Source: Chlorobiota bacterium
Lineage (GTDB): Bacteria; Bacteroidota; Bacteroidia; Bacteroidales; F082
Direction: 5' to 3'
Length of the DNA: 10,321 nucleotides
Assembly: GCA_030619415.1 (NCBI GenBank)
Contig: JAUXBM010000037.1
Location: forward strand, 1-10,321
The notes below the pieces were generated by a model. It was not told the DNA's origin. It did no database searches and worked only from the letters and a program-made list of their open reading frames with translations. How positions within the stretch are numbered: position 1 is the first letter of the stretch; the number at the start of each line of letters is the position of its first letter. The translations under genes were made by a program, and so were the position numbers. Shown here piece by piece: positions 4,225-4,709 of the stretch.

Positions 4225-4296
4225 TGCGGGGTGGAGCAGTGGTAGCTCGTTGGGCTCATAACCCAAAGGTCGTCAGTTCGAATCTGGCCCCCGCTA
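4225..4296 (+). tRNA. Initiator tRNA-fMet (CAT)
   Basis: A complete 72-nt cloverleaf can be drawn. The acceptor strands TGCGGGG/CCCCGCT pair except at 1:72. The D-arm is GAGC-AGTGGTA-GCTC. The anticodon arm is TTGGG-CTCATAA-CCCAA with CAT at 4257-4259. The variable loop is AGGTC, the T-arm is GTCAG-TTCGAAT-CTGGC and the discriminator is A4296. Two hallmarks mark it as the initiator rather than elongator Met tRNA: an unpaired 1:72 position (here T:T) and three consecutive G:C pairs next to the anticodon loop (GGG/CCC). CCA is not encoded (CAA follows), as is common in this phylum. A TATCTTTG box precedes it and a strong terminator follows. The last 30 bases are duplicated exactly 381 bp downstream. 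Confidence 0.96.
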
Positions 4297-4306
4297 CAAA
4301 GAAAGT
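4267..4306 (+). repeat. 40-bp direct repeat, copy 1 (in tRNA-fMet)
   Basis: It covers the variable loop, T-arm, acceptor 3' strand, discriminator and the first ten flanking bases (CAAAGAAAGT). It is identical base for base to 4648-4687. The match ends inside the terminator stem at 4306. Confidence 0.95.
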
Positions 4307-4327
4307 CCTGCACGTGCGGGACTTTTT
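4302..4327 (+). terminator. Intrinsic terminator of tRNA-fMet
   Basis: AAAGTCCTGCAC and GTGCGGGACTTT are reverse complements except for one T-G wobble, giving a long GC-rich hairpin followed by T's (4323-4327). It lies 5 nt after the mature tRNA end and 18 bp before the GIY-YIG start codon. Confidence 0.85.
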
Positions 4328-4345
4328 CATTTCAATACCACAGGT

Positions 4346-4630
4346 ATGCATATTGTTTATGTACTTTACTCCTTAAAAGACCACAAACTTTACAAGGGTT
4401 CCACTTCGAATATTCAAAAGAGGTTCTTCAAACACAATTCGGGTGGCAGTAAATCTACGGCCCATCGAAAGCCCTTTATTATAATCCATGTTGAACAATT
4501 TGATGACAAACGGAAAGCTCTGCTGAGAGAGAATTTTTTAAAAACATTAGAAGGCGGCGTGGCGTTAAAACAGTATCTGGTAAAGATGCATATACTAAAT
4601 GAGGATGGCAGGTTGAACGAGGAGCAATGA
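4346..4630 (+). CDS. Small GIY-YIG family nuclease
   Basis: A 94-residue single-domain GIY-YIG nuclease of the short, UvrC-N-terminal-like class. Motifs are HIVYVLYS (GIY position, Tyr5), KLYKGSTS (YIG position, Tyr16 and Gly18), then IQKRFFKHNSGGS with Arg26 and His30, and the expected catalytic Glu62 in LLRENFLKTLEGG. The core therefore looks active, although YIG is written YKG. After residue 70 the chain leaves the domain, and the last codons and TGA stop (4628-4630) lie in a degenerate copy of the tRNA-fMet D-arm. The ATG sits 18 bp after the tRNA terminator, too close for a separate promoter, so expression probably depends on read-through from the tRNA promoter or on a start inside the tRNA. 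Such small GIY-YIG proteins in Bacteroidota have no settled function. A homing or selfish nuclease aimed at the tRNA site is a reasonable guess here. Confidence 0.88.
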   Translation: MHIVYVLYSLKDHKLYKGSTSNIQKRFFKHNSGGSKSTAHRKPFIIIHVEQFDDKRKALLRENFLKTLEGGVALKQYLVKMHILNEDGRLNEEQ

Positions 4631-4637
4631 TAGCTCG

Positions 4638-4647
4638 GGCGTACGCC
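4638..4647. repeat. 10-bp perfect palindrome in tRNA remnant
   Basis: GGCGTACGCC equals its own reverse complement and sits exactly where the anticodon arm should be, directly against the start of the 40-bp repeat. Confidence 0.8.
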
Positions 4648-4687
4648 AGGTCGTCAGTTCGAATCTGGCCCCCGCTACAAAGAAAGT
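4648..4687 (+). repeat. 40-bp direct repeat, copy 2 (in tRNA remnant)
   Basis: Identical to 4267-4306. The base before (C4647) and the base after (T4688) differ from the first copy, so the borders are sharp. Confidence 0.95.
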
Positions 4688-4709
4688 TGGCTAAGTGCCG
4701 GCTTTTTTT
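4683..4709 (+). terminator. Intrinsic terminator after GIY-YIG/tRNA remnant
   Basis: AAAGTTGGC and GCCGGCTTT pair over nine positions, two of them wobble, around the loop TAAGT, followed by a run of T's. The first bases (AAAGT) belong to the 40-bp repeat. The rest differs from the first terminator, yet the hairpin is kept. Confidence 0.8.

Follow-up and report, generated by a model that had tools for sequence, protein, structure and literature searches.

What brings a small nuclease gene to lie between an intact initiator tRNA gene and a partial copy of the same tRNA, and is the DNA between them mobile? The question is posed by the window analysed here, by which we mean the whole stretch of 10,321 nucleotides corresponding to contig C156 of a draft genome (1.65 Mb, 56% complete). 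A preliminary description of this DNA listed an intact tRNA-fMet, a GIY-YIG gene, an exact 40-bp repeat of the tRNA 3' part and a terminator behind each copy; all of these parts were confirmed, by ARAGORN, a Pfam match, sequence repeat and inspection by eye, respectively. The features of the locus are listed below.

4152..4159, + strand: TATCTTTG, fitting the Bacteroidota -7 promoter motif, which we take to be TANNTTTG; likely drives the tRNA and, by read-through, the GIY-YIG gene
4225..4297, + strand: intact tRNA-fMet, anticodon CAT (ARAGORN)
4267..4306, + strand: 40-bp direct repeat, copy 1, comprising the tRNA 3' part and the first bases beyond it (sequence repeat)
4302..4327, + strand: terminator-like hairpin 1 with T-run, between tRNA and GIY-YIG gene (by eye)
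4346..4630, + strand: GIY-YIG nuclease gene, 94 amino acids (Pfam match and alignment)
4617..4678, + strand: pseudo-tRNA-fMet with D arm, a palindrome for the anticodon arm, and intact T arm and acceptor 3' strand (alignment to tRNA)
4637..4647, + strand: palindrome GGGCGTACGCC with 5-bp arms, replacing the anticodon arm (also in the cassette of genome G004)
4648..4687, + strand: 40-bp direct repeat, copy 2 (sequence repeat)
4684..4709, + strand: terminator-like hairpin 2 (by eye), somewhat closer than hairpin 1 to the terminator at the empty site of genome G033 (11.1 versus 6.6)

The tRNA-Met(cat) is the single tRNA found by ARAGORN in the window. The exact repeat (4267–4306 and 4648–4687) lies inside a 66-bp repeat matching at 85%, and we regard it as real because its length is far beyond chance and the arrangement is seen again in relatives. 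Behind each copy a hairpin and a T-run can be recognised by eye. The second copy had been taken for a broken 3' half of the tRNA. The exact 3' repeat bears this out in part, but the copy is longer than a half, as it aligns with tRNA-fMet from the D arm onward (4617–4678), becomes identical from position 4648 on, and has the palindrome GGGCGTACGCC where the anticodon arm would be. Its pseudo D arm contains the stop codon of the nuclease gene. In the window's own assembly, at its 56% completeness, the palindrome at 4637–4647 is the single exact copy. Since it is common to the G004 cassette, whose protein is 66% identical to that of the window, GGGCGTACGCC probably belongs to the element and is more than a broken end of the host gene.

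Between the repeats the GIY-YIG ORF stands alone among ORFs of at least 60 amino acids, in keeping with the earlier statement that the cargo is one nuclease with no integrase. A direct repeat of a tRNA 3' end is the usual signature of a genomic island, and islands that integrate at tRNA genes comprise a tyrosine integrase, a direct repeat of the tRNA 3' end and an intact tRNA at one side. The cassette shares the repeat and the flanking intact tRNA with such islands, but has no integrase between its repeats and measures a few hundred base pairs in all. That it is the relic of a large island, once attached at the tRNA 3' end and since deprived of its integrase, is hardly credible: in ten out of ten arrays of related units the neighbours lie 294–662 bp apart, and relics would not recur so small with the same gene. 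We take the small units and the lack of an integrase to rule such an origin out in effect. The features of a group I intron or intein are likewise missing, as the upstream tRNA is uninterrupted and the model TIGR01453 scores 20.8 bits against a cut-off of 56.05.

On comparison of sequences, we consider it probable that tRNA genes are the targets of a family of minimal mobile cassettes, lacking both intron and integrase, and that the window holds one of them. A unit, on this explanation, would consist of a pseudo-tRNA end (palindrome plus tRNA 3' part), a terminator and a GIY-YIG gene, and the putative unit sits between the intact tRNA and the pseudo-copy, in the orientation of the tRNA.

The nuclease gene and its expression

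The 94-residue product matches the Pfam family GIY-YIG (PF01541) with an E-value of 1.1e-14 and 55 bits, against a cut-off of 22.6, over residues 1–68. Conserved tyrosine, tyrosine, arginine and glutamate residues are the hallmark of the GIY-YIG superfamily. In an alignment of nine sequences that includes the window protein, Y5, Y16, G18, R26, H30, N31 and E62 are invariant, so that both the Pfam match and the hallmark positions (Y5, Y16, R26 and E62) place the protein in the superfamily. The nearest solved structures in a profile search are 'hypothetical UPF0213' proteins (PDB codes: 1YWL, E=6.4e-12; 1ZG2, E=7e-9); these stand-alone GIY-YIG proteins resemble the window protein in size and sequence family, and their names say nothing on tRNA neighbours. 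Domain searches returned no second domain and no recognisable DNA-binding part. Free-standing homing endonucleases carry a separate DNA-binding part beside the GIY-YIG domain, and a bare domain counts against a cassette whose nuclease would have to recognise one tRNA.

Ratios of dN to dS (NG86) among pairs of family members, some of them from clades without tRNA neighbours, range from 0.03 to 0.48 where dS is finite and are mostly below 0.3; the comparison of the window gene with that of G005, a genome listed in the same genus, gives 0.07 with dS saturated. These values indicate that the gene is under purifying selection.

The 80 nt that precede the tRNA contain the motif TANNTTTG in 33 of 45 loci (3.2 expected), and the spacer between tRNA and nuclease gene contains it in 2 of 45 (1.7 expected), these loci having been picked for an intact tRNA at most 130 nt upstream of the gene. 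In 33 of the same 45 the spacer holds a terminator-like hairpin. The nuclease gene therefore seems to be without a promoter of its own, in that its spacer holds no promoter-like motif beyond chance, and since the motif stands before the tRNA the gene probably lives on read-through from it.

tRNA genes beside members of the family

Homologues were found in 56 of 100 genomes (the window's own and 99 relatives), with 127 GIY-YIG matches listed, of which 119 were counted with their flanking DNA and 8 left out. A tRNA or tRNA piece (tRNA match threshold E 1e-3) lies within 300 bp on the same strand in 94 of the 119 matches, and on the opposite strand in 1, although the units of arrays were counted singly and the counts are to that extent non-independent. 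An intact tRNA upstream with a piece downstream is seen in 32 matches, and the opposite order in 12. No tRNA lies nearby in 25 of the 119 matches, including 6 with less than 150 nt of sequence on one side, and these weigh against the cassette explanation; a search of 20 of these 25 loci against Rfam returned no structured RNA at gathering thresholds. A draw across the phylum gave similar results: 131 of 296 genomes match a Met-type protein at 1e-6, and 28 of 30 fetched loci, which are the best matches to that protein rather than a random sample, have a tRNA or piece within 300 bp on the same strand at a threshold of E 1e-2. The enrichment of GIY-YIG homologues beside tRNA genes and their pieces, which had been proposed as a check on the preliminary description, is thus found both among relatives and phylum-wide. 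Chance adjacency was considered and rejected on the strand bias (94 versus 1 of 119) and on the existence of two GIY-YIG clades that are free of tRNAs.

A supposed tie to the initiator tRNA does not hold. The tRNA classes hit are fMet, Asp, Asn, Leu, Val, Arg, Ala, Pro, Ser, Phe, Thr and others, the class labels of tRNA pieces being those of the best match. Reversed polarity, with the intact tRNA downstream of the gene, is found at Arg-acg and Ser-cga and at some Arg-cct and Pro loci. The window's own genome has a second cassette, on contig C37 (locus L035), with tRNA-Asn at 1785–1859 and a GIY-YIG gene from about 1902; its pseudo-tRNA has two different palindromes, TCCCGTAAGTACGGGA and TCCCGCAGGTGCGGGA. 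In a metagenome-assembled genome (MAG) titled Lunatimonas sp., a GIY-YIG gene lies behind tRNA-Pro(ggg) (locus L191).

A scan of genome contigs with ten close sequences returned 12 loci, from MAGs titled Bacteroidales, Bacteroidia, Bacteroidetes or Bacteroidota, Cryomorphaceae, Saprospiraceae and Lunatimonas, with 2 of the 12 from a MAG titled Chlorobiota. ARAGORN found a tRNA in 5 of these 12, and several others start at a contig end. In a large protein set 93 proteins were matched, the window's own first. For the window protein, the one query used, carriage by phages, plasmids or viral contigs was rejected on three weak phage matches, no plasmid match and none in viral contigs; that no vehicle emerged from these searches counts against the cassette explanation.

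For a comparison of nuclease phylogeny with tRNA class, 102 of the 119 proteins were placed on a quickly built tree (82 columns, 36 open forks; 17 ORFs shorter than 70 amino acids excluded). The 17 labels, comprising 16 tRNA classes and 'none', require 30 changes on this tree, where the least possible is 16 and shuffled labels give a mean of 73.4; none of 200 shuffles was as low as 30. The Asp nucleases form one clade with support 97, and the numbers of changes are 2 for Arg-acg, 3 for Met, 4 each for Arg-cct, Val and Asn, and 5 for Leu-caa. Two clades, of 6 and 7 proteins, have a tRNA beside none of their 13 members. Judged from this tree, related nucleases go with related tRNAs, and the clades follow tRNA identity. 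Near-identical units within arrays add to the agreement, which counts against the cassette reading, and some of this agreement, like some of the patchy distribution described below, could result from vertical descent followed by repeated loss.

The preference of clades for tRNA classes would also be expected if the nuclease acted on tRNA or translation, as a toxin, a defence factor or a means of adjusting tRNA dosage, with the pseudo-tRNA as a decoy or immunity RNA. The altered anticodon arm of the pseudo-copies is in line with such a role. We nevertheless regard it as very improbable: we know of no GIY-YIG RNase, the nearest solved structures are the 'hypothetical UPF0213' proteins named above, and PADLOC gave no defence-system match for two family members, on which ground a defence-system family was set aside. 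A phage parallel lends the dosage version some support, as SegB in phage T6 is described, in the part of the account available to us, as raising tRNA dosage by amplification (PMC13096335).

Empty sites, arrays and pseudo-tRNAs

If the cassette moves, sites lacking it should exist in relatives, and two such cases were found, as the preliminary description had proposed to check. Within genus g15, the tRNA-fMet site is occupied by a cassette in G044 and empty in G019. In pairwise comparison the sequence behind the tRNA remnant of G044 matches the empty site of G019 with a score of 34.1, versus 10.2 for the first terminator, and the next 140 nt score 31.8 behind the remnant versus -2.5; a first multiple alignment, unlike the pairwise scores, did not place the match behind the remnant. 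The occupied site exceeds the empty one by one 346-bp unit. On these sequences, the host terminator of G019 stands directly behind the tRNA and the unit is absent. In another relative from g15, G032, locus L125 (contig C16) has a tRNA-fMet followed by a terminator like that of the element in its congener G044, with no GIY-YIG gene or repeat, and may represent a deletion scar.

The second case is G033, which is syntenic with the window (BLAST blocks at window positions 2801–4173, 4817–4901, 5010–5130 and 7061–7365) and has no GIY-YIG homologue in its genome and no GIY-YIG motif behind tRNA-fMet. The terminator comparison gives a weak result here (11.1 for the second terminator of the window versus 6.6 for the first), a point against the cassette explanation. 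Beyond the cassette, the window has a small ORF without a Pfam match at 4819–5001 on the - strand, with matching sequence in G033, and a segment at about 5010–5130 that looks zinc-ribbon-like by eye; the G033 matches to the two are in the same order.

Patchiness is seen more widely in a survey of 43 loci, some of which were picked as already known to be occupied; the rate is given for 30 fMet loci alone. Cassettes occupy six of these, 2 show a tRNA 3' repeat but no GIY-YIG motif, 3 lie at contig ends and 19 have neither gene nor repeat, from which we conclude that presence of the cassette is patchy.

The units also occur in tandem. In G006, a genome in one contig, six complete units and a seventh, truncated one stand behind the tRNA-fMet at a spacing of 356 bp, the closest pairs being units 1 and 2, 3 and 4, and 5 and 6. 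Because tRNA-fMet has one match in that genome, this array appears to stand behind a single-copy essential gene. Five GIY-YIG matches in a row were found in G269, also one contig, and further runs in G393 (one contig; GIY-YIG matches alone) and G152; the spacing of 294–662 bp comes from ten arrays measured among matches in the 100 genomes. An assembly artefact was rejected because arrays of GIY-YIG genes are present in the one-contig genomes G006, G269 and G393, although many draft contigs end inside such loci. Contigs G005:C135, G004:C32, G038:C300 and G051:C18 end in or near cassettes. It appears, then, that short-read assemblies fall apart at the cassette repeats, and counts of the family from drafts may be too low.

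The near-identical neighbouring units of the G006 arrays are what would be expected if nothing had moved, unequal recombination having duplicated a tRNA segment and trapped a GIY-YIG gene, with tandem repeats growing and shrinking afterwards. Consistent with this, in none of 26 comparisons did the 3' 25 nt of the pseudo-copy match the tRNA of another genome better than that of their own, although the method is biased to that outcome, since the pseudo-copy was located by its similarity to the own tRNA, and some tRNA ends include CCA, which shifts the comparison. Such a history is nonetheless a poor account of a gene family that is found beside many different tRNAs across numerous families of the phylum, nearly always shares the orientation of the tRNA and differs in its choice of tRNA from clade to clade, and of an occupied site in G044 that exceeds the empty G019 site by one unit; we consider it quite unlikely.

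Some units have no nuclease gene. At locus L179 of G006 (G006:C1:1069561-1070241) seven units lie behind a second CAT tRNA, each about 111 bp long, lacking GIY-YIG and made up of the tRNA 3' part and a palindrome, and this looks like a non-autonomous satellite array. Units without GIY-YIG are also present at L124 and L144. A palindromic pseudo-tRNA-fMet upstream of the fMet tRNA, with no GIY-YIG gene, was seen at the end of contig G004:C50 (L161), in G014:C83 (L145) and in G001:C51 (L160), and at L161 the upstream copy stands before the contig end.

Palindromes recur in the broken tRNA copies by class: many Met copies have TCCGCC..GGCGGA; Val, Asn and Thr copies TCCCG..CGGGA; Asp copies TCTCG..CGAGA; and Arg-acg and some Arg-cct copies CCTGCCTGCCGGCAGGCAGG. 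When frames of equal length (80 nt) are compared, with one for each tRNA class in each genome, a perfect hairpin arm of 6 bp or more is present in 43 of 61 broken copies versus 24 of 72 intact tRNAs (Fisher P=2.6e-5), and at 7 bp in 32 of 61 versus 9 of 72, while broken and intact copies do not differ at 5 bp (56 of 61 versus 67 of 72). The palindrome of the window, having 5-bp arms, is accordingly not set apart by its length. This framed count supersedes an unframed one (72 of 95 broken versus 26 of 118 intact), in which the stretches were longer for broken copies and several hairpins were terminators. A count of covariation in the palindromes was set aside, its rows having been pre-chosen with hairpins, its tRNA classes pooled and its loops entered as N. 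At L028, L025 and L058 the breaks in pieces of tRNA-Arg(cct) fall repeatedly close to positions 21/22 and 55/56, in the region of the D and T loops. Some probable pseudo-copies are called by ARAGORN as tRNA-SeC (L106) or as a tRNA of unknown type (L037, L044), and automatic annotation of genomes that bear cassettes may hold false tRNA genes.

These hairpins raise the alternative of a single-strand element of the REP/RAYT or Ssn type, in which the GIY-YIG protein would act on single-stranded hairpins and palindromes of tRNA genes and the pseudo-tRNA would be the mobile end, not a scar. Ssn is a family of GIY-YIG proteins specific for single-stranded DNA, and REP/RAYT systems have palindromes dispersed in the genome together with a TnpA_REP transposase. 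The excess of broken copies at 6- and 7-bp arms, the recurrence of palindromes by tRNA class and the units without GIY-YIG all speak for this alternative. Set against it are the lack of a difference at 5 bp, the arm length of the window palindrome itself, and the GIY-YIG ORF as sole content of the insert. Moreover, two palindromes that were counted in 12 genomes each (0–15 and 0–5 places per genome) lie partly at tRNA copies and partly at places with no tRNA in the fetched stretch. On balance we think a single-strand element unlikely.

A candidate mobile unit and known systems

The arrangement at the locus is as first described, and comparison lends the mobile-cassette reading good support. 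The suggestion of a minimal selfish cassette gains from the empty sites and the tRNA enrichment, but it needs amending in that the element is not specific for the initiator tRNA, the tRNA piece is a pseudo-tRNA and the polarity can reverse. Under the mobile-cassette reading, the small nuclease would nick or cut the tRNA gene for which it is specific, and a circle, a linear copy or a sister copy of the unit would recombine with the intact tRNA through some 17–40 bp of shared tRNA sequence. The product would be an intact tRNA, the terminator and gene of the unit, the pseudo-copy and then the old terminator of the host, as in G044 compared with G019. The host would retain one intact tRNA, its old terminator having been moved behind the pseudo-copy, and transcripts starting at the tRNA promoter would read through into the nuclease gene and so express it. 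Units would be gained or lost when the repeats recombine with one another, and loci with the intact tRNA downstream could arise by the same process using the tRNA 5' part. Both the movement and the cutting are inferred from comparison. One point counts against the cassette reading, namely that an intact tRNA stays in the occupied locus and should remain a target of the nuclease.

By analogy, the cassette would work like two known systems, SegB homing nucleases and the ORFs of fungal mitochondria that duplicate gene ends, while failing one defining feature of each. Brok-Volchanskaya and colleagues (2008) reportedly dealt with SegB among the free-standing GIY-YIG homing endonucleases of T-even phages. 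Like SegB, the cassettes have an intron-free GIY-YIG gene by a tRNA and form tandem units, and in the cassettes the end of the gene overlaps the tRNA copy. Relatives with empty target sites (G019 against G044, and G033) are a further SegB-like feature. Unlike SegB, they reside in bacterial chromosomes, mostly encode a bare domain of 75–105 amino acids, usually about 40 nt behind the tRNA, and have a pseudo-tRNA with an altered anticodon arm; their clades follow one tRNA class. The feature that fails is the separate DNA-binding part, as the window protein has 94 residues with the domain at 1–68 and no other. As far as the available part of the account goes, SegB genes of T-even phages are intron-free GIY-YIG genes beside tRNA genes, cutting by SegB in phage T6 drives tandem amplification of a 718-bp tRNA-segB unit, in which there is microhomology between the tRNA 5' end and the segB 3' end, and no isotype preference is reported (PMC13096335).

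The fungal mobile ORFs, as portrayed in the portion of the source at hand, duplicate the 3' end of a host gene (atp6, atp9, cox2 and nad3, in Allomyces and Glomus), are mostly of the LAGLIDADG type with one GIY-YIG case, and bring in ends that differ from the native ones (PMC3630166). As with these ORFs, a second gene end lies behind the nuclease ORF in the cassettes and keeps the host gene whole, with the old end behind the insert. The cassettes differ in that they are found at bacterial tRNA genes rather than mitochondrial protein genes, and in that their ends have often not diverged: the 40 bp of the window are identical, and in 13 of 28 loci the pseudo-copy is identical to the tRNA over 25 nt. 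They also have a palindrome, of which that portion of the fungal account makes no mention (PMC3630166). A survey of the GIY-YIG superfamily names tRNA, in the part available, in connection with a Slx1 fusion and in its references (PMC1564403), and titles and abstract openings of the open-licence literature gave no description of GIY-YIG cassettes at bacterial chromosomal tRNA genes.

A broader proposal may be offered tentatively, and we hold it to be possible rather than probable. The Bacteroidota could harbour a phylum-wide class of mobile DNA for which tRNA genes serve as recombination sites, and in which a bare GIY-YIG domain dedicated to one tRNA class moves and amplifies a unit ending in a palindromic pseudo-tRNA, perhaps via hairpins of single-stranded DNA. 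The units without GIY-YIG would then be satellites, and the process would be neither classical homing nor integrase-based insertion.

The locus appears to represent a minimal mobile element, so far undescribed, that does not destroy the tRNA genes in which it settles. Should this be true, essential RNA genes all across a bacterial phylum have a tiny autonomous mobile element as neighbour, which stays tolerable because an intact copy remains of each gene it enters, and chromosomal elements would be linked to the SegB system of phages. It would explain tRNA pseudogenes and contig breaks in Bacteroidota genomes. Moreover, with small nucleases that each go with a single tRNA class, the family would amount to a natural series and so provide a way to learn how a bare GIY-YIG domain gains specificity.
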